From an uncultured Clostridia bacterium (GTDB lineage Bacteria > Bacillota > Clostridia > Christensenellales > CAG-138): DNA of 64,000 nucleotides. Below, piece after piece: positions 6,357 to 60,322 of this stretch. Below the pieces are notes generated by a model. It was not told the origin of the DNA. It saw nothing but the letters and a program-made list of their open reading frames with translations, and did not search any database. The DNA is taken from assembly GCA_944366945.1 (NCBI GenBank), contig CALVWJ010000003.1, positions 98,370 to 162,369 of the forward strand, read 5' to 3'. A program made the position numbers and the translations under genes. Each line of letters opens with the position of its first letter. The stretch's first letter is position 1.

Positions 6357-6399
6357 AAAAAAGCGCGCCCAAACAAATCCATGTTCGTAGCCCGCGCGC
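6357..6399 (-). terminator. Rho-independent terminator inside the ssnA leader (candidate attenuator)
   Basis: On the minus strand, GCGCGC (6399-6394) pairs with GCGCGC (6368-6363). An inner stem CGAACA/TGTTTG encloses the loop, and six T residues (6362-6357) follow. It lies between the promoter and the ssnA start codon, so it would stop transcription before the operon unless relieved. About 55 nt of leader precede the hairpin and could hold a sensor. I do not recognise a known riboswitch there. Confidence 0.7.
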
Positions 6400-6460
6400 G
6401 AAGCACTCCCTTGCAGCTATACAATCCATATTAACACTACTGATAAGAATAATTTTTTTT

Positions 6461-37361: not shown

Positions 37362-38378
<1,017 letters not shown>

Positions 38379-38401
38379 TCGGGAACAAAATATAGGATGC
38401 A

Positions 38402-38434
38402 AAGCGGGAGCCTGCAACATGCAGGCTCCCGCTT
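38402..38434 (+). terminator. Terminator after the first GAPDH gene
   Basis: A perfect 15-bp stem (AAGCGGGAGCCTGCA, 3-nt loop ACA, complement). The T-run is poor (CTTCATGC). Confidence 0.6.
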
Positions 38435-38697
38435 CATGCTGAGAAAAGGCGTGAGCTTTCTTCCAACGCTTCATTTCAAAGACAGAAAGTTCCCCAATGG
38501 TGCGCGGGATTTTGCACCTTTTCGACGCCGCCCCACAATTGCACTTCGGGGATCTTGCGTCTCCCAAGATTTGCAAATTTACTTTAAATGCTTGGCTTTT
38601 TGCAGGCACTTGATGGTTACAATGCAACGCATACACGGGCATTGCACGAGAAAACATGTTAAAAAAATAACATAAGTAACTATTTTGGAAAACAGGC

Positions 38698-38725
38698 TTG
38701 AAATAATAATATGTTATGATATAAT
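38698..38725 (+). promoter_or_regulatory. Promoter of the second GAPDH gene
   Basis: TTGAAA (38698-38703), 16-nt spacer, TATAAT (38720-38725). Nothing else is seen in 38435-38697. Confidence 0.7.
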
Positions 38726-38805
38726 CCCGATTTGGGAGGGACGGAGCAGTCCCCCAAAACGTGCGCAAAGCGCAATCATCATTCAGCTTGGGAGGAGAAT
38801 TAGGC

Positions 38806-39825
38806 ATGGCGGTCAAGGTTGGCATCAACGGTTTTGGGCGTATCGGGAGAACGGTTTTGCGCATTGCGGCAGAACGGCCGGATGCAGTTGAGGTTTGTGG
38901 AATCAACCTGCGCAAGGCGGATCCGAATTATATGGAATACCTTATGAAATACGATTCCGTTTTTGGCCGTTTTCCGGGCCAAGTAGAGGAGCGTGAGAAT
39001 GGCATCTGCATCAATGGGCACGAGATCCCCGTGTTCAGCGAAAATGATGTGCATAATATACCATGGGATCGCTGTGGGGCGGAATATATTGTGGAGTCCA
39101 CCGGCCAATTCAATACCACGGAGCTTGCCAGTGGGCATTTGGCGCATGGCGCAAAAAAAGTTGTGCTGACTGCTCCTGCCAAGGATACTGCAACTCCGAC
39201 TTATGTGATCGGCGTAAACCACACCAGCTATGACCCAAAATACAACGTGGTTTCCAACGCGAGCTGCACTACGAACTGCCTTGCACCGCTCGCCAAGATC
39301 ATCCATGATAACTTTGGCATTGAGCAGGGGCTTATGTCTACCATCCATTCCGCAACATCCAAGCAGAAGCCCGTTGATAACCGGGCAGGGCGCGATTACC
39401 GCACCGGGCGTTCCGTGTTCAACAACATCATCCCTTCCACAACTGGCGCTGCAAAAGCGGTGGGCCTCGTGATGCCGGAACTCAAGGGCAAGCTCACCGG
39501 CATGAGCTTCCGCGTGCCCACAAACGATGTTTCCGTGGTTGACCTCACCGCGCGCCTCGGCCGTGCTACAACATATGCTGAGATTTGCGCAACAATAGAG
39601 GAAGCATCCCGCACTACCATGAAAGGGATCGTAACATATACGAAGGACGAAGTCGTTTCTACGGACATGAAAGGCGAAAGCCATACCTGCATTTTTGATG
39701 AAAACGCAGGCATTATGCTGGATAGCAATTTTGTAAAGCTGATTGCCTGGTACGATAATGAATGGGGCTACTCCTGCAAGGTGCTGGATCTTATCGAGCA
39801 TATGGCACAGGTGGATAGAAACTGA
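38806..39825 (+). CDS. Second glyceraldehyde-3-phosphate dehydrogenase, altered coenzyme site
   Basis: 339 aa from the ATG at 38806 (GGGAGGAG upstream). The catalytic [13 protein letters not shown] and the His motif (STIHSATSKQKPVDN) are intact, so it should act on glyceraldehyde-3-phosphate. The Rossmann acidic residue is replaced: GINLRKADPNY stands where the first copy has GINDPF. Loss of that Asp is what distinguishes NADP-preferring, gluconeogenic-type GAPDHs such as B. subtilis GapB. It also has CRAGRDYRTG-like differences in the S-loop (DNRAGRDYRTGRSVFNN). Its own promoter and terminator make it separately controlled. It is more likely an anabolic or NADPH-linked paralogue than a recent duplicate. 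Confidence 0.92.
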   Translation: MAVKVGINGFGRIGRTVLRIAAERPDAVEVCGINLRKADPNYMEYLMKYDSVFGRFPGQVEERENGICINGHEIPVFSENDVHNIPWDRCGAEYIVESTGQFNTTELASGHLAHGAKKVVLTAPAKDTATPTYVIGVNHTSYDPKYNVVSNASCTTNCLAPLAKIIHDNFGIEQGLMSTIHSATSKQKPVDNRAGRDYRTGRSVFNNIIPSTTGAAKAVGLVMPELKGKLTGMSFRVPTNDVSVVDLTARLGRATTYAEICATIEEASRTTMKGIVTYTKDEVVSTDMKGESHTCIFDENAGIMLDSNFVKLIAWYDNEWGYSCKVLDLIEHMAQVDRN

Positions 39826-41705: not shown

Positions 41706-42164
41706 TCAAGGCTCATATTTTAAAAGTTCGACGCCGGCGAGATCGAATATTTTGAGCGCAAATGCATCGGGGTACCCCTCGCCATAGATCACGCGGGAAA
41801 TACCGGAATTCACAATCATTTTTGCGCAGATCACGCAGGGCTGGTGCGTGCAGTACAGCGTGGCTCCCTCGATAGAAATGCCGAGTTTTGCCGCCTGGAT
41901 GATCGCGTTTTGCTCTGCGTGAATGGCGTAGCAGAGCTCGTGCTGCGTGCCGGAAGGAATGTTGAGCTTGCGCCGAAGGCATTCGCCCCGTTCCACGCAG
42001 CTTTTCACGCCTGCGGGCGCCCCATTGTAACCGGTTGTGATGATGCGCTTATTGCGCACGATTACTGCGCCGATCTGGCGGTTTTGCTGAAAACAGCTGG
42101 ACCAGCTTCCGACCATTTTTGCCATGTCCATAAAACGCTGATCCCACTTGGTCCATTCGCTCAT
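41706..42164 (-). CDS. dCMP deaminase family protein (ComEB-like)
   Basis: 152 aa from the ATG at 42164 (GGGAGG 6 nt upstream). The zinc site is complete: HAEQNA (His/Glu, about 83-88) and PCVICAKM (two Cys, about 111-118), with GYNGAPAGVKSC near the start providing the second zinc/nucleotide loop. It deaminates dCMP to dUMP for thymidylate synthesis; clostridial ComEB-type proteins are similar. It is single and divergent from the purine operon regulator. Confidence 0.93.
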   Translation of the reverse strand: MSEWTKWDQRFMDMAKMVGSWSSCFQQNRQIGAVIVRNKRIITTGYNGAPAGVKSCVERGECLRRKLNIPSGTQHELCYAIHAEQNAIIQAAKLGISIEGATLYCTHQPCVICAKMIVNSGISRVIYGEGYPDAFALKIFDLAGVELLKYEP

Positions 42165-42275
42165 GCGCTTGCCTCCCAATCCATGATTTGCTTAAAAGTA
42201 TAACACGGCGAAGTGTTGCCGTACACCCCCACATGCAAGGCCACAGAATGCTAAAAAGATAACGACGATGCCGCC

Positions 42276-42304
42276 TTTACAAAGCGCGAAAGAGAGCGTA
42301 TAAT
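42276..42304 (+). promoter_or_regulatory. Promoter of the gntR-pur operon
   Basis: TTTACA (42276-42281), 17-nt spacer, TATAAT (42299-42304). The +1 should fall near 42311, just before the operator pair. Confidence 0.85.
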
Positions 42305-42315
42305 AGCGTACGTAA

Positions 42316-42340
42316 AGGTAATACCTTTAAGGTAATACCT
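42316..42340 (+). promoter_or_regulatory. Two-copy palindromic operator for the GntR regulator
   Basis: The palindrome AGGTAATACCT occurs at 42316-42326 and again at 42330-42340, 14 nt apart. Each is AGGTA, a central base, TACCT. The pair covers about +6 to +30, where a bound repressor would block the promoter of its own gene and of everything downstream. Symmetric GGTA...TACC cores are common for HutC-type GntR proteins. Confidence 0.75.
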
Positions 42341-42364
42341 ATTTTCATTCGGAGGAAACGGAGC

Positions 42365-43093
42365 GTGGATCAGCAAATGCCGGCGCAGAACAACCCCATC
42401 CGCACGCGGTTGCTTGCCGCTATGCAGGATGGGATCTTTGCGCACTGTGAGCGCCTGCCGCGCGAAAGCGTGCTAGCGGAGCAGCTTGGCATCAGCCGCA
42501 CGCAGCTTCGGGATAGCCTTGCTACACTGGAACGGGAAGGCTTTATCACCCGCAGGCACGGCGTCGGCACCATGATCAACCGCCATGTGCTTTCCGTGCA
42601 GACGCGCATGGACATCGAAGTGGAATTCATGGATATGATCCGCCAGGCGGGAAAGGAGCCCGGCCTGGGATTCGCAAAAGCTGAACCCATCGCCTGCAGC
42701 GGGGAGGTCGCTGCACGCTTGAAGATTCAACAGGGAGAAATGGTTCTCAAGGTATGCCGGCTTGTAACCGCAGATGGAAAGCCGGCGATCTATTGTGAGG
42801 ATCATTTGCCTTACGGCTTGGTAAAACGCCCGCTGGAGGAGGCGGACTTTGCCCGGCCGATTTTTGATTTTTTGCAAGAATTCTGTTTGGTAGAACCCTA
42901 TATGGACTTAACGGAGATCCGCCCTACTGTTGCGGATGCGCGGCTTGCGAAGCTTCTTTGCGTTGCAAAAGGGGCGCCGCTGCTTTATATGGATGAGGTG
43001 GATTACGATATTGCGGGCACGCCCGTTCTGGCCTGCGCGGAATACTATGTGGACGGGGTCGTAAAACACACGGTGATGCGCAAGCGGCTTTGA
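42365..43093 (+). CDS. GntR-family (HutC subfamily) transcriptional regulator, probable purine operon regulator
   Basis: 242 aa from a GTG at 42365 (GGAGGAAACGG upstream). The N-terminal winged helix (about 12-75) has LPRESVLAEQLGISRTQLRDSL and FITRRHGVGTMI. The UTRA effector domain (about 90-240) has RLKIQQGEMVLKVCRLVTADGKP, YCEDHLPYGLV and the closing ACAEYYVDGVVKHTVMRK. HutC/UTRA proteins bind small ligands such as sugar phosphates, histidine-pathway intermediates or nucleotides. It is the first gene of the purine operon, 50 nt before purE, and its promoter carries two palindromes. Self-regulation is highly likely and control of the whole operon follows, since no separate purE promoter is visible. 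Confidence 0.92.
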   Translation: MDQQMPAQNNPIRTRLLAAMQDGIFAHCERLPRESVLAEQLGISRTQLRDSLATLEREGFITRRHGVGTMINRHVLSVQTRMDIEVEFMDMIRQAGKEPGLGFAKAEPIACSGEVAARLKIQQGEMVLKVCRLVTADGKPAIYCEDHLPYGLVKRPLEEADFARPIFDFLQEFCLVEPYMDLTEIRPTVADARLAKLLCVAKGAPLLYMDEVDYDIAGTPVLACAEYYVDGVVKHTVMRKRL

Positions 43094-43143
43094 TGCGCAG
43101 CGCGATGAAAATGCAACAATTTGCAGAAGATAAAGGAGACAAC

Positions 43144-43641
43144 ATGAAAAAGATTGCGGTTTTAATGGGGAGCGATAGCGATCTTCCCGTCATCAAGGCG
43201 GCGTTTGCAATATTGCGTGAATATGGCGTTCCGTTTGAAGCGCATGTGATGAGCGCGCACCGCTCGCCGGAGGCTGTGCAGGCGTTTGCCTCAGCGGCAC
43301 GGGAACGCGGTTTTGGCGCGATCCTTGCAGCGGCGGGCAAGGCGGCGCATCTTGCGGGTGCGGTTGCGGCTAACACGACGCTGCCTGTTATCGGCATCCC
43401 GGTGAAATCCTCTACGCTCGATGGGCTAGACGCGCTGCTTGCAACGGTGCAGATGCCTTCGGGTATGCCGGTTGCAACCGTGGCAATCGATGGGGCAGCA
43501 AACGCAGCATTGCTTGCGGTGCAAATGCTTGCCGTGGAGGATGATGTGCTTGCAACCAAGCTCGCTGCAAAGCGTGCGGCCATGCGGGAGCAGATCGCGG
43601 AAAAGGACGCCCGCCTGCAAAAGGAACTGGATACCCTATGA
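43144..43641 (+). CDS. purE: N5-carboxyaminoimidazole ribonucleotide mutase (PurE)
   Basis: 165 aa from the ATG at 43144 (AAAGGAG). Hallmarks are LMGSDSDLPVIKAAF, the substrate-binding His in MSAHRSPEAVQAF, AAAGKAAHLAGAVA and PVIGIPVKSSTLDGLDALLATVQMP-type phosphate binding. It makes CAIR in de novo purine synthesis. The usual AGGAAHL loop here has Lys (AGKAAHL). No purK is in the operon, so either purK lies elsewhere or this PurE uses AIR and carbonate directly. Confidence 0.95.
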   Translation: MKKIAVLMGSDSDLPVIKAAFAILREYGVPFEAHVMSAHRSPEAVQAFASAARERGFGAILAAAGKAAHLAGAVAANTTLPVIGIPVKSSTLDGLDALLATVQMPSGMPVATVAIDGAANAALLAVQMLAVEDDVLATKLAAKRAAMREQIAEKDARLQKELDTL

Positions 43642-43679
43642 GTTTATAATTTAAAAATTTTTACCGGAGGAGACTGTTT

Positions 43680-44408
43680 ATGAAGAAGCTGGAACAGGTA
43701 TATGAAGGCAAGGCGAAGAAGGTCTTCAGAACGGACGATGAAGGGCTTTTCATCGTGGATTACAAAGACGATGCAACGGCGTTCAATGGACTTAAAAAGG
43801 GCACCATTGCCGGAAAAGGCGCCATTAATAATCGCATGACCAACAGCATCATGCAGCTGCTGGAGCAGCACGGTATTTCGACGCATTTTGTAAAAGAGCT
43901 TTCTGAGCGCGAAACGCTGGTCAAGCGCGTGCAGATCGTCCCTATCGAGGTGATCGTGCGCAACGTTGCCGCAGGTTCGCTTGCAAAACGCCTGGGCCTT
44001 GCCGAAGGCACGCGCCTCAAGAGCACGGTGCTGGAGTATTGCTATAAAAACGATGAGCTGGGCGATCCCATGATCAATGATTACCATATCTTTGCAATGG
44101 GGCTTGCCTCCAAAGAGCAGCTTGAAAAAATTGCAGCATATTCGCTTAAGATCAACGAGATCCTCGTTGCCTTCTTTAAGGAGATCGGTGTCGACCTCAT
44201 CGATTTCAAGCTTGAATATGGCGTTACAAACGATGGCACGCTCGTTCTTGCGGATGAAATTTCGCCCGACACCTGCCGCTTCTGGGATAGCAAGACGGGG
44301 GAAAAGCTCGATAAGGACCGTTTCCGCCGCGATCTTGGCGGCGTGGAAGAAGCATATCAAGAAATGATGAAGCGCTTGAATGCGCATGGCGTGGGCGAAC
44401 GGAAATGA
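43680..44408 (+). CDS. purC: SAICAR synthetase
   Basis: 242 aa. ATP- and CAIR-binding motifs are [18 protein letters not shown] at the start, [49 protein letters not shown], and [12 protein letters not shown]. It joins CAIR with aspartate. GGAGGAGA precedes the ATG at 43680. Its last four bases overlap the purF start (ATGA), so translation is coupled. Confidence 0.97.
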
Positions 44409-45856
44409 GCATGCATGAGATCCATGAAGAGTGCGGCGTGTTCGGCGTATATGCGCAGGAGCGGGCAGATGTAGCTTCCCTTGCTTATTATGCGCTTTAT
44501 GCGCTGCAGCATCGCGGGCAGGAGAGCTGCGGCATCGTTGTAAACGATGACGGGCTGTTCAGCTATCATAAGGACAACGGACTTGTCAACGAGGTGTTCC
44601 ACGCGGATACACTTGCGCGGCTCGGGCATGGCAACATCGCGGTAGGCCATGTGCGCTATGGCACTACGGGCGGGCGCGAGCGCAGCAACGCGCAACCCAT
44701 TGTGGTAAACCATCGCAAGGGGCGCATGGCGATCGCGCACAACGGCAACCTGGTAAATTCCCAGGAGCTGCGGGAGGAGCTGGAGCTTGGCGGCGCCATT
44801 TTCCAAACCACCAGCGACACGGAGGCTATCGCCTATGTGATCGTGCAGGAGCGGCTCAAGACGGCGTCCATCGAAGAGGCGGTGAGCCAAGCGATGGACA
44901 AGCTTGAGGGCGCATATTCCCTGGTGCTCACTTCGCCCACCAAGCTCATCGGCGTGCGCGACCCGCACGGATTCCGCCCGCTCTGCATCGGAAAAACGCG
45001 CAGCGGCGCATATGTGCTTGCATCGGAAAGCTGCGCCCTTGACGCGGTTGGTGCGGATTTCCTGCGCGATGTTGAACCGGGCGAGATCGTCGTAATCGAT
45101 AAAAACGGCATAAGCACGCGCACGGAGCATTGCAACCAGTGTGATTCGGCGCTCTGCGTGTTTGAGTTTATCTATTTCTCGCGTCCCGATTCCGTTGTGG
45201 ATGGCAGCTCTGTGCACGTTGCCCGCCAGCGCGCGGGCGCATTCCTTGCGCTCGAACACCCTGTGCAGGCGGATATCGTGATCGGCGCGCCGGATTCCGG
45301 CCTCGATGCTGCGCTCGGATTCGCACGCCAATCCGGAATTCCCTATGATATTGGGCTGTTGAAGAATAAGTACATTGGGCGCACGTTCATTTCCCCCACA
45401 CAGGAAATGCGGGAGAATGAAGTCAAGATCAAATTGAATGCGATCCGCTCCGTGGTGGAAGGAAAGCGCGTTGTGCTGGTAGATGATTCCATCGTTCGCG
45501 GCACGACCAGCCTTCGCACGGTGCGCCTGCTGCGCCAAGCGGGGGCAACAGAGGTACATATGCGCATTTCAGCGCCGCCCTTTGTGAACCCTTGCTACTA
45601 TGGAACTGATATCAGCTCCAAGGAAAACTTGATTGCAACCAACCATACGGTTCCCGAAATCGCCAAGATCATCGAGGCGGACAGCCTTGGGTTCCTCAGC
45701 ATGGAGAACGTAACCAAGCTGGCCGTTGGATGCAAATGCGGCTTCTGCACGGCCTGCTTCGGCGGGAAATACCCGACGCGGGAGCCTTCCAACACCAAAA
45801 AGGACCGTTTTGCCTATAAAATCAGTGAAAGCGAGGAACGCGGGTATGGAAAATAA
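44405..45856 (+). CDS. purF: Amidophosphoribosyltransferase
   Basis: 483 aa. The short propeptide (residues 1-9) precedes the Ntn catalytic Cys10 in [10 protein letters not shown], with the glutaminase domain to about 235 and HRGQESCGI. The PRTase domain has [14 protein letters not shown] (PRPP loop). The C-terminal [16 protein letters not shown] holds the [4Fe-4S] cysteines found in oxygen-sensitive Bacillus-type PurF. It performs the first committed step, PRPP plus glutamine to phosphoribosylamine. It overlaps purC by 4 nt and purM by 11 nt. Confidence 0.97.
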
Positions 45857-46886
45857 GCAAAGCCACAGCGCGAGCTACCGCGCTGCGGGCGTGGATATTG
45901 AAGCCGGCTATAAGGCCGTGGAGCTGATGAAGCAGCACGTGGCGCGCACGATGATCCCGGGCGTTGTTTCGGATATCGGTGGCTTTGGCGGCCTGTTCGC
46001 GCCGGATCTTTCCGGCATCTGCGAACCGGTTCTGGTAAGCGGCACGGACGGCGTTGGAACAAAGCTTAAAATCGCTTTCAAGATGGATAAGCACGACACG
46101 GTGGGGATCGACTGCGTTGCCATGTGTGTCAACGATGTGGCCTGCGCAGGTGCAAAGCCGCTGTTCTTCCTCGATTATGTCGCCGTGGGCAAAAACGAGC
46201 CCGAGCGCGTTGCGGCGATCGTTTCGGGCGTAGCGGAAGGCTGCGTGCAGGCGGGCTGCGCACTCATCGGCGGAGAAACCGCGGAGATGCCGGGCTTTTA
46301 TGGGGAAAAGGAATACGACCTTGCGGGCTTTTCCGTGGGCCTTGGCGATAAATCCAAGCTTTTGACAGGGGAAACCGTGCAGGCGGGAGATGCCATCCTC
46401 GCTCTTGCATCCAGCGGCGTGCATTCCAATGGCTTTTCGCTGGTGCGCCGGGTGTTTGCTGTGGAGCACCGGGATCTTTCCGTATATTCGGAAGAACTTG
46501 GGGCCACGATCGGCGAAGCGCTTCTTACCCCGACGCGCATCTACGTCAAACCGCTGTCCGCACTCATGCAGGCGGTTCAAGTTAAAGCAGCAGCGCATAT
46601 TACCGGCGGCGGCTTTTATGAAAACATCCCGCGCTGCCTGCCCAAGGGGCTTTCGGCGAAAATCGAGCGCCGCGCGGTGGAGGTACTGCCGGTATTCCAT
46701 ATGATTCAGCGCCTTGGCGATATCCCGGAACGCGATATGTTTAACACCTTCAATATGGGCGTTGGTATGTGCGTGGTCGTCCCGCAGGCGGAGGCTGACG
46801 CCGCTGTGCGCTCTTTGGAAGCAAGCGGTGTGCATGCATATGCGCTGGGCGAGGTCGTGCCGGGCGAGGGCGTTGCGATATGCTGA
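45846..46886 (+). CDS. purM: Phosphoribosylformylglycinamidine cyclo-ligase (AIR synthetase)
   Basis: 346 aa from the ATG at 45846, which overlaps the end of purF; GAGGAA lies about 12 nt upstream. Hallmarks are [65 protein letters not shown] and [16 protein letters not shown]. It converts FGAM to AIR using ATP. It overlaps the next gene, purN, by 7 nt. A longer reading from 45726 is inside purF and is not used. Confidence 0.97.
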
Positions 46887-47491
46887 AGCAGCGCATTGCC
46901 GTGCTGGTTTCGGGCGGCGGGACGAACCTTGAGGCGCTGCTGCAAGCGGAGCGCGCAGGTGCGATCCCGCATGGCGAGATCGTGCTTGTGGTTGCCTCCA
47001 ACCCGGAGGCATATGCGCTCAAACGGGCGGAAAACCATGGCGTAGCACATGCGGCTGTAAACAGAAAAGAATTGGGAGCAGAAGCGTTTGAAGCCGAGAT
47101 TGCGGCACTCCTTGGCGAATATGCCATCGACGTGGTGGTGCTTGCGGGATTCTTGAGCATTTTGAGCGCGCAATTCGTGCGGCGCTGGCCGAACCGCATC
47201 TTGAATGTGCACCCATCGTTGATCCCGTCGTTTTGCGGGAAGGGATGCTATGGGCTGCATGTGCATGAGAAGGCGCTCGCCTATGGCGTAAAGGTAACGG
47301 GCGCAACGGTGCACCTGGTCAACGAGGTGCCCGATGGCGGGAAAATCCTGCTGCAAAAGGCAGTGGAGGTTCAGCCGGGGGATACGCCGGAAACGCTGCA
47401 GCGCCGCGTGATGGAGGAAGCGGAATGGCAGCTCCTGCCGCGCGCAGTGGAGCTGGTTTGCTGCGCGCTTTCTGAGGGAAGGGAGATTTAA
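46880..47491 (+). CDS. purN: Glycinamide ribonucleotide formyltransferase
   Basis: 203 aa. The phosphate loop [15 protein letters not shown] is at the start. The folate and catalytic residues are in [17 protein letters not shown] (Asn, His) and [19 protein letters not shown] (Asp). It transfers a formyl group from 10-formyl-THF to GAR. FolD, encoded at the operon end, supplies the cofactor. It overlaps purM by 7 nt and is followed by the IMP cyclohydrolase gene after one base. Confidence 0.96.
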
Positions 47492-47492
47492 C

Positions 47493-48209
47493 GTGCAAAC
47501 GCAGGAAATACAGAAAATCTTACAGGAAAACGGCTATGTTGGCCGCGGTGTGCTTATGGGCCTGTGCCCATCCGGCCGCCGCGCCGCGATGGCATATTTC
47601 ATCATGGGGCGCAGCGAGAACAGCCAGAACCGCGTCTTCGTTGCGGATGGAGAAGGGCTTACCATCCATCCTTTCGATGCGGCGAAGGTTGCGGATCCGC
47701 GCCTTATCATCTATTCCCCGGTGCGCGTGCTGGGGCAGACTACCATCGTCACAAACGGCGATCAGACGGATACGGTCTATGACTTCCTCGCTGCGGGGAA
47801 AACGTTTGAAGAGGCGCTGCGCACGCGCTGCTTTGAGCCGGATGCACCGAACTTCACCCCGCGCATCAGCGGCATGATGACCGTTGCAGATGGCGGATGC
47901 GCATATCGGCTCTCTATTTTAAAAAGCGCGGACGCCGCAGGCAGCGCCTGCCTGCGCCAAACGTTTGAATATGCGGAGCCTCTTGCAGGGATCGGGCACT
48001 TGATCCATACTTACCGCAAGGATGGGAATCCGCTTCCTTCCTTTGCAGGGGAACCGGAACAGGTGGCGATTCCGGAAGATGCGGATGCGTTTGCGGATTG
48101 CCTGTGGGAAAGCCTGGATGCGCGCTATAAGGTTGCCCTTTTCGTGCGCACGATCGACCTTGCAAGCGGCGCTGCGCAAACGCGCATCATCAACAAGCAT
48201 GTGAAGTAA
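47493..48209 (+). CDS. IMP cyclohydrolase, archaeal PurO-like type
   Basis: 238 aa from a GTG at 47493 (AGGGAAGGGAG upstream). The sequence resembles the IMP_cyclohyd (PurO) family: NGYVGRGVLMGLCPSGRR, FIMGRSENSQNRVF, IYSPVRVLGQ and VTNGDQTDTVYDFL. This family closes FAICAR to IMP. It sits between purN and a formyltransferase gene that lacks its own cyclohydrolase domain, which supports the assignment. It differs from the bacterial norm, in which one bifunctional PurH does both steps. Confidence 0.88.
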   Translation: MQTQEIQKILQENGYVGRGVLMGLCPSGRRAAMAYFIMGRSENSQNRVFVADGEGLTIHPFDAAKVADPRLIIYSPVRVLGQTTIVTNGDQTDTVYDFLAAGKTFEEALRTRCFEPDAPNFTPRISGMMTVADGGCAYRLSILKSADAAGSACLRQTFEYAEPLAGIGHLIHTYRKDGNPLPSFAGEPEQVAIPEDADAFADCLWESLDARYKVALFVRTIDLASGAAQTRIINKHVK

Positions 48210-48219
48210 GGAGGACGGC

Positions 48220-49401
48220 ATGAAGGAATTGGAACTTAAGTATGGCTGCAACCCCAACCAGAAGCCTGCGCGCATTTTTATGGAGCAAGGCGAGCTGCCC
48301 ATCAAAGTGCAGAACGGGCGGCCCGGGTATATCAACCTGCTGGATGCGTTCAACGGCTGGCAGCTTGTGCGGGAGCTTAAAGCAGCGCTTAATATGCCGG
48401 CGGCAACCTCGTTTAAGCATGTGAGCCCGGCGGGCGCGGCAGTGGGCGTGCCGCTCAATGAAACGCTCCGCCGGATCTATTTTGCAGATGAGATCCCGGG
48501 GCTTGCGGATTCGCCGCTTGCAACCGCCTATGTGCGCGCGCGCGGTGCGGACAGGATGTCCTCTTTCGGCGACTTTGTTGCCCTTTCGGATGTGTGCGAT
48601 GTCGCAACGGCGCGCGCCTTGCAGCACGAGGTCTCCGATGGCGTAATTGCGCCGGGATATGCCCCCGAGGCGCTTGCAATCCTCAAAACAAAGAAAAAGG
48701 GAAACTATGTGGTTCTTGAAATCGACCCGACTTATGAGCCTGCGCCCATCGAGCGCAAGCAGGTGTTCGGCATTACGTTTGAACAGGGGCGCAATACGGC
48801 CACCTTCGACGAAAACACATTTGCAAACATCGTTACAAAGAGCAAAACGCTTCCGGAATCTGCAAAACGGGATTTGATCGTAGCGCTCATTGCGCTTAAG
48901 TATACGCAGTCCAACTCCGTGTGCTTTGCAAAGGATGGACAGACCATCGGCGTGGGCGCGGGGCAGCAATCCCGCATCCACTGCACGCGCATCGCCGGCA
49001 GCAAGGCCGACCTTTGGCACCTGCGCCAGCATGAAAAAACGCTTTCCCTGCCGTTCCGCGCGGATGTAAAGCGGCCGGACCGGGACAACGCGATCGACGT
49101 TTATCTTTCTGATGAGCCGGAAGAGGTCCTCGCAGACGGCTGCTGGCAGCGCCTGTTTACTGAGCGGCCCGCGCCGTTTACGAAGGAAGAAAAGCGCGCC
49201 TATCTCGATGCGATTTCGGATGTTGCATTGGGAAGCGATGCGTTTTTCCCGTTTTCGGACAATATCGAGCGGGCAAAGCGCAGCGGCGTGCGCTATATTG
49301 CGCAGCCCGGCGGCTCCGTGCGGGATGATCTCGTGATCGAAGCCTGCGACGCACACGGCATTGTTATGGCCTTTACGGGCCTTAGGCTGTTCCATCATTG
49401 A
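48220..49401 (+). CDS. AICAR formyltransferase, stand-alone (lacks the cyclohydrolase domain of PurH)
   Basis: 393 aa, against about 510-530 aa for bifunctional PurH. It begins directly in the AICAR transformylase fold (LELKYGCNPNQKPARIF) and has the catalytic Lys-His pair in TSFKHVSPAGAAVGVPL, DRMSSFGDFVALSDVCD, the C-terminal GAGQQSRIHCTRIAG and FFPFSDNIERAKRSGV. The N-terminal MGS-like inosinicase domain is absent. It adds the formyl group to AICAR; ring closure is left to the PurO-like protein encoded upstream. AAGGAGG precedes the ATG. Confidence 0.95.
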   Translation: MKELELKYGCNPNQKPARIFMEQGELPIKVQNGRPGYINLLDAFNGWQLVRELKAALNMPAATSFKHVSPAGAAVGVPLNETLRRIYFADEIPGLADSPLATAYVRARGADRMSSFGDFVALSDVCDVATARALQHEVSDGVIAPGYAPEALAILKTKKKGNYVVLEIDPTYEPAPIERKQVFGITFEQGRNTATFDENTFANIVTKSKTLPESAKRDLIVALIALKYTQSNSVCFAKDGQTIGVGAGQQSRIHCTRIAGSKADLWHLRQHEKTLSLPFRADVKRPDRDNAIDVYLSDEPEEVLADGCWQRLFTERPAPFTKEEKRAYLDAISDVALGSDAFFPFSDNIERAKRSGVRYIAQPGGSVRDDLVIEACDAHGIVMAFTGLRLFHH

Positions 49402-49420
49402 TAATAAGGAGGTAACGGCA

Positions 49421-50701
49421 TTGAAGGTCATGGTAATCGGCGGCGGCGGACGCGAGCACGCCATCATCAAGGCGATAAAGAAAAACCCGGATGTTGAAAC
49501 CATTTACGCGCTTCCGGGAAACGGCGGCATTGCGGCAGATGCGGTATGCGTGCCCATCGGCGCCAAGGAGATTGACAGGATTGCGGCCTTTGCAGAGGAG
49601 CAGGCGGTGGATTTTGCAATCGTTGCGCCGGATGACCCGCTGGCCCTTGGCGCAGTGGACCGGCTCCACGCACTCGGCATCCCCTGCTTTGGGCCTGATG
49701 CAAAGGCGGCTGAAATCGAAAGCAGCAAGGTATTTGCCAAAAATCTGATGCGCAAATACAATATCCCGACCGCAGCGTATGCCGTGTTCGAGGATCCGGA
49801 GACCGCGCTTGCGTATCTTCGGGGCGCGCGGTACCCTTCCGTCATCAAGGCGGATGGGCTTGCCCTCGGCAAGGGCGTAATCATCGCGCAGAATTATGTG
49901 GAAGCGCAAGCGGCGATCGAAACGATTATGCGCGAAAAGAAGTTTGGCGCGAGCGGTAGCCGCGTGGTGATAGAGGAATTCCTAACGGGCCCGGAGGTAT
50001 CTGTTCTGGCATTTACGGATGGGGAAACGCTTGTGCCGATGGTCTCTTCCATGGACCACAAGCGCGCGCTGGATGGCGACCTTGGCCCGAACACGGGCGG
50101 CATGGGTACCGTTGCACCAAACCCATATTATACGAAAAGAATCGCGGATACGTGTATGCAGACGATCTTCTTGCCCACGATCCGCGCCATGGCGGCGGAA
50201 GGCAGGCCATTCCGCGGCTGCCTCTATTTCGGGCTGATGCTCACCGCAGATGGCCCGAAGGTGATCGAATACAACTGCCGCTTTGGCGATCCGGAAACCC
50301 AAGTGGTTCTGCCGCTTCTCAAAAGCGACCTTTTAACCGTGATGATGGCGGTGGAAGAGGGACGCCTTGCGGAAACCCCTGTGGAATTCTTGGAGGATGC
50401 GGCATGCTGCGTGGTCGTCGCTTCGGGTGGATACCCGGGGGCATATGAAAGCGGGAAGCCGATCTCCTTCGCGGATACGCCTGCACTTCGTGAAGCAGTG
50501 GTGTATCATGCGGGCACCAAACGGGATGAAAGTGGCGCGCTTGTAACCGCGGGTGGCCGCGTGCTGGGGGTTACCGCCATAGCGGGCACGCTTGCGGAAG
50601 CTCGGGAAAAGGCCTACCATGCGGTGGAGGCAATCTCATTTGAAAACGCGTTCTATCGCAAAGACATCGGCGCACGCGCGCTCGCGGCAAACGCCAAATA
50701 A
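49421..50701 (+). CDS. purD: Phosphoribosylamine-glycine ligase (GAR synthetase)
   Basis: 426 aa from a TTG at 49421, chosen because AAGGAGGT lies 6-7 nt upstream; the ATG at 49361 lies inside the preceding gene. Hallmarks are KVMVIGGGGREHAIIKAI, ATP-grasp PSVIKADGLALGKGVIIA, VVIEEFLTGPEVSVLAF, LGPNTGGMGTVAPNPYY and YNCRFGDPETQVVLPLL. It makes GAR from phosphoribosylamine and glycine. Ten nt separate it from purL. Confidence 0.96.
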   Translation: MKVMVIGGGGREHAIIKAIKKNPDVETIYALPGNGGIAADAVCVPIGAKEIDRIAAFAEEQAVDFAIVAPDDPLALGAVDRLHALGIPCFGPDAKAAEIESSKVFAKNLMRKYNIPTAAYAVFEDPETALAYLRGARYPSVIKADGLALGKGVIIAQNYVEAQAAIETIMREKKFGASGSRVVIEEFLTGPEVSVLAFTDGETLVPMVSSMDHKRALDGDLGPNTGGMGTVAPNPYYTKRIADTCMQTIFLPTIRAMAAEGRPFRGCLYFGLMLTADGPKVIEYNCRFGDPETQVVLPLLKSDLLTVMMAVEEGRLAETPVEFLEDAACCVVVASGGYPGAYESGKPISFADTPALREAVVYHAGTKRDESGALVTAGGRVLGVTAIAGTLAEAREKAYHAVEAISFENAFYRKDIGARALAANAK

Positions 50702-50711
50702 AGGAGCTTGT

Positions 50712-53700
50712 ATGGTTTATCGTGTTTTTGTAGAAAAAAAACCAGCGCAGGCAAATGAAGCCAAGGCGCTCCTCAATGAGTTGCAGGCGCTGCTTGGCCT
50801 TTCCATGATTTCGGGCCTCCGGCTGTTTTACCGCTATGATGTGGAAGGGATTAGCGAGGCGCTGTTTCGCCAATGCATAACCACCGTATTCTCCGAGCCA
50901 CCGGTGGATGATGTATATGAAGCGCTGCCGGCGGCAAACAGCGCCGCCGTATTTGCGGTGGAATCCCTGCCGGGCCAGTTTGATCAGCGCGCAGACTCCG
51001 CGAGCCAGTGCATCCAGTTGATCTCCCAGGGGGAGCGCCCGCTCGTGCGCACGGCAAAGGTCTACATGCTCTTTGGCGCGGTGGATGAAGCTGCGCTTGC
51101 CGCTGTGAAGCATTATGTGATTAACCCCGTGGAATGCCGGGAAGCTTCGCTTGCGCCGGTTGAAACGCTGCAGGCTGCGCTGGAAGCGCCCGATAGCGTG
51201 GAGACGCTTGCGGGCTTTTTGGAGCTGGATCGGGAAGGGCTTGTTGCGCTCCATAAACGCCTTGGCCTAGCGATGGACCTTGACGATCTTCTTTGCTGCC
51301 AGCGCTATTTCCAAAGCGAAGGGCGCGCGCCCACGATCACCGAAGTGCGCGTGCTCGATACGTACTGGTCGGATCATTGCAGGCATACCACGTTTGGCAC
51401 ACGCCTTACGAACCTTACATTTGCGCATCCGCGTGCAGCGCAGACCTATGCCCGTTATGAGGAGATCCGCCGGGAGATGGGCGCGGAAAAACCCGTGACG
51501 CTCATGGATCTTGCAACGCGCGCAGCAAAATATTTGAAACAGACGGGGGCACTCAAACGCCTGGATGAATCGGATGAGATCAATGCCTGCACGGTGAAGA
51601 TCGATGTAAAAACCGATGCGGGGTGCGAACCTTATCTGCTGCTTTTTAAAAACGAAACCCACAACCACCCCACGGAAATCGAGCCGTTTGGCGGCGCTGC
51701 AACCTGCATTGGCGGCGCCATCCGCGATCCGCTTTCCGGGCGGGCATATGTTTATCAAGCTATGCGCTTGACCGGCGCAGCGGACCCGCTTTGCCCCGTT
51801 TCCGAAACGCTGCCTGGCAAGCTGCCGCAGCGCAAGATCGTAACCACGGCCGCGGCCGGGTATAGCTCCTATGGCAACCAGATTGGCCTTGCAACCGGGC
51901 TTGTGGACGAGCTTTACCACCCAGGCTATGCAGCAAAACGCATGGAGATCGGCGCGGTAGTGGGCGCGGCTCCTGCCAAGAACGTGCGGAGGGAAACGCC
52001 TGCGCCGGGCGATGTGGTCATCCTGCTTGGTGGGCGCACGGGGCGTGACGGATGCGGCGGCGCAACAGGCTCTTCCAAATCGCACAATACCAGTTCAATC
52101 GAAACCTGCGGCGCAGAGGTGCAAAAAGGCAATGCACCCGAAGAACGCAAACTTCAGCGCCTGTTCCGCAATCCGGAAGCCGCACGCCTCATCAAACGCT
52201 GCAACGATTTTGGAGCCGGTGGCGTGAGCGTTGCCGTAGGTGAGCTTGCGGACAGCCTTTGCATTGAGCTTGACGCAGTTCCCAAAAAATACGAGGGGCT
52301 CGATGGGACCGAGCTTGCGATCAGCGAATCCCAAGAGCGCATGGCGGTCGTGGTTGCAAGCGCGGACGCGGCGCGCTTCTGTGCGCTTGCGGCAACGGAG
52401 AACCTGGAGGCGACGATCGTTGCCACCGTGACCGATGACGGCCGCATGACCATGGATTGGAAGGGCAAGCGCATTGTGAATCTTTCCCGCGCGTTCCTTA
52501 ACACCAACGGCGCGCCCAAAGAAGCGAAAGCGCATGTGGTTGCGCCTAAACCGCCCCAAAGGCGCGAGGAAAGCGGGTTTGCTGAAACGTACCGCGCCAT
52601 GGCGAACGAACTCAACGTTTGCTCCAAACGCGGCCTTGCGGAGCGCTTTGATGCTACCATCGGCGCGGGCAGCGTGCTCATGCCGTTTGGCGGAAAACGG
52701 CAGCGCACGCCGGCGCAGGCCATGGCAGCGAAGATCCCCATGCTGCATGGGGACACAACGACCTGCTCCGTGATGGCCTGGGGGTTTGACCCGTTTGAAA
52801 GCGAATGCGATCCCTATCGTGGCGCCTATACGGCTGTTGCGCAGTCCGTTGCCAAGATAGTTGCAGCGGGCGCGCCGATTGCCAACTGCTATTTGACGTT
52901 CCAGGAATACTTTGAGAAGCTGGGCGAGAAACCGGAACGCTGGGGCAAGCCCGTGGCAGCGCTCCTTGGTGCGTTTGCGGCGCAGCTGGATCTTAAGATC
53001 GGCGCCATTGGGGGTAAGGACTCCATGAGCGGCTCCTTCAATGAAATTGATGTGCCGCCGACGCTCGTTTCCTTTGCGATTTCTACAGGCGATGTCAAGA
53101 ACATCATCTCGCCGGAATTCAAGCGCGCGGGCGCTCCGGTTTACCGCATTGCGGCGGATGTTGACGCCGATGGCATGCTTATCCCCGAAAGCCTCTGCGC
53201 CTGCCTTGCAAGTGTGGAACGGTTGATTCAAGAAGGTAAAGTTGTAAGCGCGTACGTATGCGCGCAAGGCGGTGCTGCGGAAGCCGTGCTCAAAATGTGC
53301 GTGGGTAACGGCTTTGGATTTGTGTTCGATGCGGGCGTTTCCCAAAATGTGCTGTTTGAAAAGCACCCGGCTTGCTTCGTGGTGGAGGCGGCAGGGGATG
53401 CGCTTGCAGAAGGGGAACTTCTCGGCCATGTCAGCGCGGAATCCACGCTGTGCTTTGGCGGCGAATCCATTGGCCTTGCTCTGCTGGAAGATGCATATGA
53501 AGGCAAGCTTGAGAGCGTGTTCCCCTGCAATATTGCCATGGAGGAAGAAGCGCTGCCCGCACCTTATTGGCGCGCAGAACGCTGGCCTGCGCCGCGGATC
53601 CGCAAAGAAGCGGCGCGCGCGCTCATCCCCGTGTTCCCAGGCACAAACTGCGAATACGATACGGCCCGGGCGTTCGAACGCGCGGGAATCGCCGCGGATG

Positions 53701-54410
53701 TGCTGGTGCTGCGCAATCTGAGCGCAGCAGACGTTGCACAGGCGGCGGAGGAATTCGCGCGCCGTGCGCAGCAGGCGGAGATCATCTTCATCCCGGGCGG
53801 CTTCTCCGGCGGCGATGAGCCAGATGGTTCCGGCAAGCTTATTACGGCATTTTTCCGCAACCCGCGCATCAAGGAGAGCGTGAACCAATTGCTCAACAAC
53901 CGCGATGGGCTGATGTGCGGCGTATGCAATGGGTTCCAAGCGCTCATTAAGCTTGGGTTGCTCCCCTATGGAGAGATCCGCGATGCAGATGCGCAAAGCC
54001 CAACCCTAACCTACAATGTAATCGGGCGGCATCAATCGAAAATTGTGCGCACGCGCGTATGCTCCAACAAATCGCCCTGGTTGATGCGCACCCAGCCGGA
54101 TGAAATCTATTCCGTTCCGATTTCCCATGGCGAAGGGCGCCTGCTCTGCAACGAAGCACAGCTGGTTGCGCTTGCAGAATCCGGTCAGATCGCCACGCAA
54201 TACGTTGACCTTTCCGGGACACCTACGATGCAGGTGCAGTTCAATCCAAACGGATCGGCCTGGGCCATTGAGGGCCTCACTTCGCCGGATGGCCGCATCC
54301 TAGGCAAGATGGGGCATTCCGAGCGCATCGGAGAAGGCTTGTATAAAAATGTAGAAGGTCGCTATGATATGCAGATCTTTGCATCGGCGGCAGACTACTT
54401 TAAACTTTGA
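50712..54410 (+). CDS. purL: Phosphoribosylformylglycinamidine synthase, single-chain
   Basis: 1,232 aa from the ATG at 50712 (AAAGGAGC); a reading from 50592 begins inside purD. The order is an N-terminal PurS-like region, a linker, two AIR-synthetase-type ATP domains (LDTYWSDHCRHTTFG, FKNETHNHPTEIEPFGG, GGRTGRDGCGGATGSS) and a C-terminal class I glutaminase (VFPGTNCEYDTARAF, catalytic Cys in CGVCNGFQAL, His/Glu in PISHGEGRL). This is the shorter single-chain type found in Clostridia, not the split PurS/Q/L of Bacillus. It converts FGAR to FGAM. Confidence 0.97.
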   Translation: MVYRVFVEKKPAQANEAKALLNELQALLGLSMISGLRLFYRYDVEGISEALFRQCITTVFSEPPVDDVYEALPAANSAAVFAVESLPGQFDQRADSASQCIQLISQGERPLVRTAKVYMLFGAVDEAALAAVKHYVINPVECREASLAPVETLQAALEAPDSVETLAGFLELDREGLVALHKRLGLAMDLDDLLCCQRYFQSEGRAPTITEVRVLDTYWSDHCRHTTFGTRLTNLTFAHPRAAQTYARYEEIRREMGAEKPVTLMDLATRAAKYLKQTGALKRLDESDEINACTVKIDVKTDAGCEPYLLLFKNETHNHPTEIEPFGGAATCIGGAIRDPLSGRAYVYQAMRLTGAADPLCPVSETLPGKLPQRKIVTTAAAGYSSYGNQIGLATGLVDELYHPGYAAKRMEIGAVVGAAPAKNVRRETPAPGDVVILLGGRTGRDGCGGATGSSKSHNTSSIETCGAEVQKGNAPEERKLQRLFRNPEAARLIKRCNDFGAGGVSVAVGELADSLCIELDAVPKKYEGLDGTELAISESQERMAVVVASADAARFCALAATENLEATIVATVTDDGRMTMDWKGKRIVNLSRAFLNTNGAPKEAKAHVVAPKPPQRREESGFAETYRAMANELNVCSKRGLAERFDATIGAGSVLMPFGGKRQRTPAQAMAAKIPMLHGDTTTCSVMAWGFDPFESECDPYRGAYTAVAQSVAKIVAAGAPIANCYLTFQEYFEKLGEKPERWGKPVAALLGAFAAQLDLKIGAIGGKDSMSGSFNEIDVPPTLVSFAISTGDVKNIISPEFKRAGAPVYRIAADVDADGMLIPESLCACLASVERLIQEGKVVSAYVCAQGGAAEAVLKMCVGNGFGFVFDAGVSQNVLFEKHPACFVVEAAGDALAEGELLGHVSAESTLCFGGESIGLALLEDAYEGKLESVFPCNIAMEEEALPAPYWRAERWPAPRIRKEAARALIPVFPGTNCEYDTARAFERAGIAADVLVLRNLSAADVAQAAEEFARRAQQAEIIFIPGGFSGGDEPDGSGKLITAFFRNPRIKESVNQLLNNRDGLMCGVCNGFQALIKLGLLPYGEIRDADAQSPTLTYNVIGRHQSKIVRTRVCSNKSPWLMRTQPDEIYSVPISHGEGRLLCNEAQLVALAESGQIATQYVDLSGTPTMQVQFNPNGSAWAIEGLTSPDGRILGKMGHSERIGEGLYKNVEGRYDMQIFASAADYFKL

Positions 54411-54433
54411 TCCAGAAAGGCGGTTGAAACGAT

Positions 54434-55273
54434 ATGGCGACCATCATCAGAGGAAAAGAGGTGGCCGAGCAGGTACTTTCGCAGGTAAAGGCGGATGTGG
54501 CGGCGCTCCTTGCGCGCGGCGTTACGCCGTGCCTTGCGGTGATCCTGGTGGGGGATGATCCCGCTTCGCGCATTTATGTTGGCAAGAAAAAAGAGAAATG
54601 CGCGGAACTTGGCATGCGTTCGCTGGAATTTACGTTACCGGCAGAAACCCAGGAGGAAGAGCTGCTTGCGCTCATTGCAAAACTCAACGCGGATGAAAGC
54701 GTGCATGGGATCCTCTGCCAGCTGCCGCTTCCCAAGCACCTTGACGAACAGACCATCGTGCGCGCAGTCGCGCCAAAAAAGGATGTGGATGGCTTTACCT
54801 GCCGCATTTCAGCGGATGCGCGGCGGGATCTTATGCCCTGCACGCCGGCAGGCGTTATGGAGATGTTAGCCTATGCGAATGTTTCCATCGCCGGAAAGCA
54901 CTGTGTCGTCGTAGGCCGCAGCAACATCGTGGGCAAACCCATGGCGGCGCTGCTCCTGCAGGCGGATGGCACGGTCACGATCTGCCATTCAAAAACGCGC
55001 GATTTGGCAAACATTACCCGGCAGGCAGACATCCTTGTTGCTGCGGTGGGGAAACCGCATTTTATCACGGCGGATATGGTTAAGGAAGGCGCAGTGGTGA
55101 TCGATGTCGGCGTAAACCGCGGCGCAGACAGGAAGGTAATCGGGGATGTTGATTTTGAAGCCGTGGAAAAGAAGGCTTCCATGATCACGCCCGTTCCAGG
55201 CGGCGTGGGCTTGATGACCATCGCCATGCTGATGAAGAACACCGTGCGCGCTGCGGCGCAGCAAAACCCATAA
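54434..55273 (+). CDS. folD: Bifunctional methylene-THF dehydrogenase / methenyl-THF cyclohydrolase
   Basis: 279 aa. Catalytic Tyr/Lys are in [16 protein letters not shown], the substrate loop in [15 protein letters not shown] and the key Asp in KDVDGFTC. The NADP-binding part is [17 protein letters not shown], and the closing motif is [15 protein letters not shown]. It makes 10-formyl-THF precursors consumed by PurN and the AICAR formyltransferase. AGAAAGGCGG precedes the ATG. Its place inside the pur operon matches this demand. Confidence 0.96.
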
Positions 55274-55292
55274 CAGGAGGAAAAGAAAACCC

Positions 55293-56801
55293 ATGGCTTA
55301 TTTTTACGAAGAACCTTCCCATACGTTTAGCGAATACCTTCTGATCCCCGGCTATTCCTCGGCGGAGTGCATTCCTTCGAATGTAACGCTCAAAACGCCG
55401 GTCGTGCGGTTTAAGAAAGGGGAAAAAAGCGCGGTTACGATGAATATCCCGCTGGTTTCTGCTGTGATGCAGGCTGTATCGGATGATAAGATGGCCATTG
55501 CGCTTGCAAAAGAAGGCGGCATCGCGTTCATCTATGGCTCGCAGACCGTGGAACGGCAGGCGGAGATGGTACGGCGTGCGAAAAACTACAAAGCGGGCTT
55601 TGTTGTGAGCGATTCCAACATTCGGCCCGATCAGACCCTTGCAGATGTGCTCGAACTCAAGGAACGCCTGGGTCACTCCACCATGGCCGTTACGGATGAT
55701 GGCACGGGAACGGGGAAATTCCTTGGCATCGTTACAAGCCGGGATTACCGCGTAAGCCGCATGGATAAGGCAACCCGCGTTGCGGAATTCATGACACCCG
55801 TAGAAAAGACCATTTTTGCCCCGGAGGGGACTAGCCTTAAGGAAGCAAATGATATCATTTGGGATCATAAACTCAACGCGCTCCCGATTCTGGATCAAAA
55901 AGGTCACCTGGTCGCATTTGTATTCCGCAAGGATTACGACATCCACAAGGGCAATCCGGATGAACTGCTCGATGCGCAGAAACGCTATGTAGTGGGTGCT
56001 GGCGTAAACACCCGCGATTATGAAACCCGCATCCCAGCGCTTGTGGAAGCGGGCGTGGATGTGCTCTGTATTGATTCTTCCGAAGGATTTTCCGAATGGC
56101 AGAAGCGCACGCTTTCCTGGGTGCGCGAACGCTATGGGGATTCAGTGAAGATCGGTGCCGGAAACGTCGTAGACGGCGACGGTTTCCGCTTCCTTGCCGA
56201 GGCAGGTGCAGATTTTGTGAAGGTTGGCATCGGCGGCGGTTCCATTTGCATCACACGCGAAACCAAGGGCATTGGCCGCGGGCAAGCCACCGCGGTGATC
56301 GAGGTGGCCAAAGCGCGGGATGCCTATTTTGAAGAAACGGGCATTTATGTGCCGATCTGTTCGGATGGCGGCATCGTGCAGGACTACCATATTACGCTTG
56401 CCCTTGCAATGGGCGCGGATTTCTGCATGCTTGGCAGGTATTTCGCCCGCTTTGATGAAAGCCCCACGAGCCGTGTGCTGATCAACGGCAATTACATGAA
56501 AGAATACTGGGGTGAGGGCTCTGCGCGCGCGCGCAACTGGCAGCGTTATGATATGGGTGGCGCGGCAAAGCTTTCGTTTGAAGAAGGCGTGGATTCCTAT
56601 GTTCCATATGCTGGAAGCCTCCGGGATAACGTATCCCTCACGCTTTCCAAGGTGCGTTCTACGATGTGCAATTGCGGCGTGCTTTCCATCACGGAATTGC
56701 GCGAGAAAGCGCGGCTTACGCTCGTGTCCTCGGTGAGCATCGTAGAAGGCGGCGCACACGATGTGCTGCTGAAGGACAGGACAGGTACGCCATCGAAATA
56801 A
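55293..56801 (+). CDS. guaB: Inosine-5'-monophosphate dehydrogenase (atypical GGGSICI active-site type)
   Basis: 502 aa. It is a TIM barrel with an inserted CBS pair (about 100-215; [20 protein letters not shown]). The active-site loop is [19 protein letters not shown], where the usual bacterial form is [19 protein letters not shown] and [21 protein letters not shown] follow. It oxidises IMP to XMP using NAD, the first step to GMP. AGGAGG precedes the ATG at 55293. It is the last gene of the operon and is closed by a perfect 14-bp hairpin. The guaA and purA/purB genes are not in the window. Confidence 0.94.
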
Positions 56802-56804
56802 ACC

Positions 56805-56841
56805 TTTTGCCATGCCAATTATCCCGTTTGGCATGGCAAAA
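56805..56841 (+). terminator. Terminator ending the purine operon
   Basis: TTTTGCCATGCCAA (56805-56818) and its exact complement (56828-56841). Confidence 0.75.
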
Positions 56842-56872
56842 CGCAATTCTTGCCCAACGTTTTCGACAGAGC

Positions 56873-56902
56873 TTGCGCTTTTCTGCCATTTCGTAGTAAA
56901 AT
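56873..56902 (+). promoter_or_regulatory. Promoter of the VanW gene
   Basis: TTGCGC (56873-56878), 18-nt spacer, TAAAAT (56897-56902). Confidence 0.45.
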
Positions 56903-56917
56903 AAATTGAAGTATTGC

Positions 56918-56953
56918 GCAAAGTCCCATTGATAGCAATCATTGGGACTTTGC
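56918..56953 (+). other. Long hairpin in the VanW gene leader
   Basis: GCAAAGTCCCA (56918-56928)/TGGGACTTTGC (56943-56953) enclose a second TGAT/ATCA stem across a T-T mismatch, forming 15 base pairs. No T-run follows, so it is not a terminator; it starts about 9 nt after the predicted +1. Confidence 0.5.
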
Positions 56954-57000
56954 TCGATACACGAAATACCATGCGCCGCAAAGGCGTTGCAGGGGATAGA

Positions 57001-60165: not shown

Positions 60166-60304
60166 AAAAATAAAAACGCCCCGCGAAAAACGAGACGATT
60201 GTATGATTCGCTCATCTTTCGGCTATTGCCGCGGGAATTGGCACCTTGCATCGCTGCAGGTTGCCGGGTTTCACAGGGCCCGTCCCTCAACCACTCTTGA
60301 TAAG
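60166..60304 (-). ncRNA. SAM-I riboswitch (S-box) with terminator
   Basis: On the minus strand, the P1 stem GATGAG (60216-60211) pairs with CTTATC (60304-60299). Within it are GAGGGACGGGCCC, TGAAACCCGGCAACC, AAGGTGCCAATTCC and a GAAAGATGAG 3' end, the standard S-box core in order. The expression platform is a CGTCTCG/CGGGGCG hairpin (60197-60177, with G-U pairs) followed by TTTTTATTTTT (60176-60166). It sits between the metK promoter and start codon. Confidence 0.95.
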
Positions 60305-60322
60305 GCATATTCAATTAAAATA

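Follow-up and report, generated by a model that had tools for sequence, protein, structure and literature searches.

The window (the whole 64,000-nt stretch of DNA analyzed here) carries on its forward strand twelve genes in the order gntR-purE-purC-purF-purM-purN-purO-AICAR formyltransferase-purD-purL-folD-guaB, which are preceded by a promoter, two palindromes and a ribosome-binding site. The features are as follows:

42276..42304, forward strand: sigma-70-type promoter, TTTACA (42276-42281), 17 nt, TATAAT (42299-42304), read from the sequence and top scorer of the promoter scan.
42314..42328, no strand assigned: operator 1, AAAGGTAATACCTTT, where the GntR protein is predicted to bind, read from the sequence, with the conserved core GGTANTACC.
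42330..42340, no strand assigned: operator 2, AGGTAATACCT, where a second binding event is predicted, read from the sequence.
42351..42355, forward strand: ribosome-binding site GGAGG, read from the sequence.
42365..43093, forward strand: gntR, from GTG (42365) to TGA (43093), coding for a FadR-like winged helix with a UTRA effector domain, a predicted purine repressor (Pfam GntR/UTRA; sequence and fold comparisons with PDB).
43144..43641, forward strand: purE (TIGR01162 above the cut-off).
43680..54410, forward strand: purC, purF, purM, purN, purO, AICAR formyltransferase, purD and purL (ORFs; Pfam/NCBIfam for purO and AICAR formyltransferase; Pfam for purD and purL).
54434..55273, forward strand: folD (Pfam).
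55293..56801, forward strand: guaB, IMP dehydrogenase of the PRK07107 type (NF005493 above the cut-off).

The gaps between these genes range from about -11 to 50 nt (the starts of purD and purL being off by a few bases), and the genes referred to as purC, purF, purM and purN are presumably such, as judged from their translations. The promoter matches 11 of the 12 consensus letters and is the best of six promoter-like sites detected in a scan of positions 42150-57000, where the total shows no excess over the shuffle mean of 7.5. The near-consensus promoter, the ribosome site and the position of the GntR/UTRA gene as gene 1 of a 12-gene purine operon had all been described in the original prediction, and the sequence, Pfam and ORF data agree with it on each of them; a strong independent promoter directly before purE, which it had named as contrary evidence, was looked for in the same scan, and no promoter-like site was found between gntR and purE. 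In place of a fused PurH, IMP synthesis is served at 47493-49401 by two separate genes, one for a PurO-like IMP cyclohydrolase (PF07826) and the other for an AICAR formyltransferase standing alone. Other features observed in the window are a SAM riboswitch (60209-60306, reverse strand) that immediately precedes a metK-like gene, so named by its translation, an ssnA RNA motif (6379-6426, reverse strand), and a tandem pair of glyceraldehyde-3-phosphate dehydrogenase-like genes at 37365-39825, likewise named by translation.

The two identical perfect palindromes expected just after the promoter are indeed there, the start-to-start spacing of both AGGTAATACCT copies being 14 nt, and the first copy (42316-42326) even lengthens into the 15-bp palindrome AAAGGTAATACCTTT (42314-42328). 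With transcription presumably starting about 7 nt past TATAAT, both would fall in the first 30 or so transcribed bases. Exact AGGTAWTACCT occurs only three times in the whole 2.4-Mb genome, as the leader pair and as a third copy inside a coding frame. With up to one mismatch it was found at 20 places vs 55 for the reversed control, i.e., with no excess, and consequently the weight of evidence lies in the placement and conservation of the site and not in its number. Apart from the leader pair there are 18 such places, namely 17 one-mismatch ones and the third exact copy; a mechanical ORF call puts 13 of them within open frames, and no purine gene was recognized by eye in the frames adjacent to the remaining places at up to one mismatch in this genome.

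Purine genes in Firmicutes are also controlled by the purine riboswitch (RF00167). No match to it at the gathering score was found in the 64,000-nt window, and the genome as a whole gave none under strict filters. Such riboswitches are present in 31 of the 103 genomes of the family (29 over the cut-off); in the sister genomes L079 and L083 the match adjoins amidohydrolase genes (recognized by Pfam and by translation, respectively), not the pur operon. The leader itself matches no Rfam family at the gathering score, in line with the expectation that it holds no riboswitch, and a leader riboswitch was rejected on this ground and because the fold is no better than that of shuffled sequences. The palindromes might still act in the leader RNA, as a hairpin, by attenuation or in translational control, and not as a DNA operator. 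Both copies can indeed pair into one hairpin; however, its z-score is only -0.9, and 34 of 200 shuffles fold equally well, which, together with the lack of an Rfam match at the gathering score, argues against such a role. The arrangement of the sites in related genomes bears on the same question (see below).

The GntR winged helix at the N-terminus of the gntR product (PF00392, 52 bits vs a cut-off of 27) places it in the GntR family, and the UTRA (chorismate-lyase-like) effector domain (PF07702, 89.2 bits vs 23.8) is that of the HutC subfamily. Fold comparison matches the protein with YvoA and DasR, and a PDB search with the full-length profile gave YvoA, a HutC protein, as the best match. 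When the 76-residue DNA-binding domain was used alone instead, the best 8 of the 17 PDB matches were FadR-subfamily proteins by name, with YvoA ninth; PdhR, FadR and Rv0494 are nearest to this domain, PdhR and Rv0494 being taken by us as members of the FadR subfamily. All three differ from the gntR product in the effector part, which is FadR-type in them and UTRA in the latter; a helical FadR/FCD effector domain is lacking in the gntR product. None of the NCBIfam equivalogs PhnF, PhnR, HutC, TreR and LSA1692 scored above its cut-off, the best being PhnF with 89.9 bits vs 156.8. The UTRA regulators YvoA/NagR, DasR and PhnF are about 17-24% identical to the gntR product and differ from it in their gene neighbors, which in the case of gntR are purine genes. 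Structures of YvoA and DasR hold GlcN6P or GlcNAc6P, and the pocket-region residues of the gntR product are different: among its relatives C144 never varies and D146 hardly does, while YvoA has other residues at these positions. In the operator, GT-ANT-AC, the GT and AC are separated by 3 nt, whereas the spacing is 4 nt in most HutC sites, and in the form GTA-N-TAC the operator agrees with the FadR consensus GTM-N0-1-KAC (both rules from PMC4494728). Judging from sequence, the gntR product joins two subfamilies, reading DNA in a FadR-like manner and carrying a HutC-like sensor. The HutC-type assignment made in the original prediction is valid for the UTRA sensor but not for the DNA-binding half or the operator spacing, both of which are FadR-type.

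The relatives of the gntR product were collected from 16 loci of named genomes and from 29 of the 103 family genomes that matched it at E 1e-40; three distant paralogues were set apart, and 33 non-redundant upstream regions (27 from the family and six from the named loci) were scored. The search for AGGTAWTACCT upstream of gntR in related genomes, proposed earlier as a check, revealed the exact core GGTANTACC within 250 nt upstream of gntR in 31 of these 33 relatives and its reversed form in none of the 33. In the two misses, G093 and L013, the site is present only with one mismatch. G051, G052 and G015 likewise carry a pair of exact copies, spaced by 13-14 nt, and a single exact copy precedes gntR in many other relatives. 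In 30 of the 31 site-bearing relatives the first exact site has a promoter-like pair 4-25 nt ahead of it, the remaining one being cut by the contig end. Since gntR start codons in the relatives were guessed by a script (one guess being implausible), the site was located relative to the -10 box and not to gntR; the two are separated by 4-17 nt in 23 of the relatives, and by 23-25 nt in seven of the genus g24, which carry a degenerate copy in between.

The gene neighborhood is similarly uniform: pur or guaB genes adjoin gntR in 31 of the 33 relatives, and one more (G097) is cut by the contig end. In L013, gntR precedes a pbuX-like xanthine permease gene (just under the TIGR03173 cut-off) and the xanthine phosphoribosyltransferase gene xpt. 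The three distant paralogues (L177, L178 and L179) adjoin a BMP-type ABC transporter; adenine deaminase is also encoded at L177, a xanthine-dehydrogenase-like gene (Pfam) lies nearby at L178, and one of similar translation at L179. L178 and L179 each have a pair of palindromes, spaced by 15 bp, before the transporter and just after a promoter-like sequence, in the same layout as in the window; no exact site was found before the gntR gene itself in any of the three paralogues, nor anywhere in the 10 kb read in G028. As for the distribution of the regulator, a sample of 396 genomes from the order contains 13 with a match at E 1e-60, all of them belonging to its own family. Records titled Oscillibacter or Dysosmobacter show about 60% identity, database proteins matching at E 1e-40 number 1622, and 17 records are of phage relatives, with at most 31% identity among the matches listed. 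Horizontal transfer of gntR is possible. Two near-identical 414-residue database proteins (P0033 and P0039) contain GntR/UTRA and PurE in one frame, as a result of either natural fusion or an assembly effect.

Purine operons lying apart from gntR show how far the site goes with the regulator. In the genus g23, gntR adjoins guaB and the purE operon is located elsewhere, and the site was found in 11 of 12 purE upstream regions; the only miss, in G088, is the one with 77 nt before the contig end. At these 11 unlinked purE promoters (TTTACW-17-TATNNT) the site stands 8-13 nt after the -10 box, whereas the stretch between it and the first matched base of purE is anywhere from 41 to 120 nt long. A position fixed to the promoter and not to the gene, as well as the single exact copy in many relatives, speaks against an element of the leader RNA, which we consider very improbable. 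A different objection to the GntR protein as the ligand of the palindromes is that another regulator could bind them, gntR being a mere passenger gene. Binding by the gntR product is indeed only predicted, and in the 53%-complete G078, counted among the 11, the site precedes purE though gntR was not found ("not found" here and below meaning one protein search at E 1e-40). On the other hand, the FadR-like DNA-binding half suits the GT-3-AC motif, and in the family genomes where gntR was not found, G078 aside, the site was absent from all 27 purE upstream regions (one of them readable for 25 nt only) and all 25 guaB upstream regions (0 of 52 altogether). We therefore regard binding by another regulator as improbable. 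The comparison took in 39 purE and 36 guaB upstream regions, above-cut-off matches to the two genes being present in 63 and 70 of the 103 genomes, respectively; as some guaB genes are internal to operons, the 400 nt upstream do not in every case represent a promoter region.

Unlinked guaB has no site in any of six gntR-bearing genomes (five of g24, and G015), which counts against a full regulon. The split arrangement recurs in a second lineage: of the three AAGGTANTACCT sites in the whole assembly of the Oscillibacter genome G464, one precedes gntR-purH, another precedes the unlinked purE-purC-purF, and the third separates an ftsH-like gene from a sodium-symporter-like one, while in another Oscillibacter genome, G463 (gntR-purH-guaB), the whole-assembly search gave the gntR site and no second one. 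The Oscillibacter site between the ftsH-like and sodium-symporter-like genes, both named by translation, is a perfect AAGGTAATACCT (L269, 1501-1512) and may be either a chance occurrence or a further target. The proposed control of the operon by the GntR repressor is supported in part, in that the site tracks the regulator across genera and to unlinked purE, and is weakened by the unlinked guaB genes and by G463. Overall, the comparison of sequences indicates that an operator-like site is conserved and goes with a purine-dedicated GntR protein on linked and some unlinked purine operons.

The pur operon of Firmicutes is known to be repressed by PurR of the Bacillus subtilis type (TIGR01743), a protein of a family other than that of the gntR product. 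No TIGR01743 PurR was found in the genome studied: the best match, with 64 bits vs the cut-off of 258.7, is a xanthine phosphoribosyltransferase (Xpt). PurR above the cut-off was detected in two of the 103 family genomes, one of which, G015, has the GntR gene too. Among GntR proteins, loss of MSMEG_5174 in Mycobacterium smegmatis raises the expression of purine-metabolism genes (PMC9309504); this protein belongs to the YtrA subfamily, unlike the gntR product, and neither UTRA nor EMSA is mentioned in the text. In a literature search covering few subscription journals, none of the papers listed deals with clostridial purine biosynthesis under the control of a GntR/UTRA protein.

The site was encountered also upstream of rRNA genes. 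A search for rRNA promoters, blind to the palindrome, gave 18 promoters in 10 of 13 g23 genomes, the 16S start being Rfam-confirmed in two of these loci only. Exact GGTANTACC lies within 420 nt upstream of 10 of the 18 promoters, eight of these sites being positioned 184-185 nt before the -35 box; eight promoters have no exact site. In total, 12 sites were observed in these upstream regions vs a base-shuffled mean of 0.086 and maximum of 3 in 1000 rounds, the species being related and not independent. With the same relatedness of species, the core identity among the eight fixed-distance sites is 93%, the 25-nt flanks giving 28% and 43%. An AT-rich element, ATATACTTWWAAATATA, is conserved between the site and the g23 rRNA promoter (L213, L214, L215, L221, L222, L223, L194 and L232-L249). 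Terminators were considered as a source of the rRNA-upstream sites and rejected: the surroundings look hairpin-like by eye in some loci, not in L214 and L244. Six rRNA-promoter matches in the genera g1, g4 and g24 (four, one and one, respectively) have no site; these are G052, G053 and two in G054, all of the same genus as the genome studied, G003, and G092, the last being promoter-like. In the genome studied the 16S gene was not found. The rRNA promoter pattern matched no genome of the gntR-less genera, so the rRNA link is left with no gntR-less control.

Considering these data, the GntR-family protein encoded by the first gene of the operon likely represses this same operon. Its predicted dimers would bind the two GGTANTACC palindromes that directly follow the -10 box and would let go of them when the UTRA domain is occupied by a purine-pathway signal. 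The ligand of a UTRA regulator such as YvoA/NagR usually acts as an inducer, and hence the repressor would most likely come off the DNA in response to a signal that purines are short, the candidate being PRPP or a phosphoribosyl intermediate; this would combine negative autoregulation with control of the pathway. Here we infer the binding, its sign and the ligand. That the gntR product binds the palindromes and represses the purine operon is, as far as sequence comparison goes, quite probable; the induced mode taken by itself, i.e., release of the repressor by its ligand, is drawn from analogy, and its probability falls somewhat short of even. The same protein and sites could also operate with guanine, hypoxanthine, GMP or (p)ppGpp as a co-repressor that strengthens binding, just as a purine co-repressor does with PurR of Escherichia coli. 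Such a mode would make sense for a biosynthetic operon, those relatives that adjoin base salvage genes (pbuX-xpt, adenine deaminase) could share a base as their signal, and the C144/D146 pocket, unlike that of YvoA, could hold a base; the ligand-induced behavior of most studied UTRA regulators speaks against it, and we hold a co-repressor to be conceivable while leaning toward doubt.

Given repression by the GntR protein as the preferred reading, a regulator together with its operator and set of targets can now be tested for purine synthesis in gut Clostridia that have no PurR above the curated cut-off. In a broader and quite tentative picture, which may well fail to hold, a FadR-headed, UTRA-tailed GntR protein would have taken over from PurR as the master regulator of purine genes in scattered gut-clostridial lineages, and in one genus its binding to a palindrome set at a constant distance ahead of rRNA promoters would also tie purine supply to ribosome making. 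The rRNA link, if true, would open to testing how nucleotide supply and ribosome synthesis are coupled in a lineage whose regulator is a different one.
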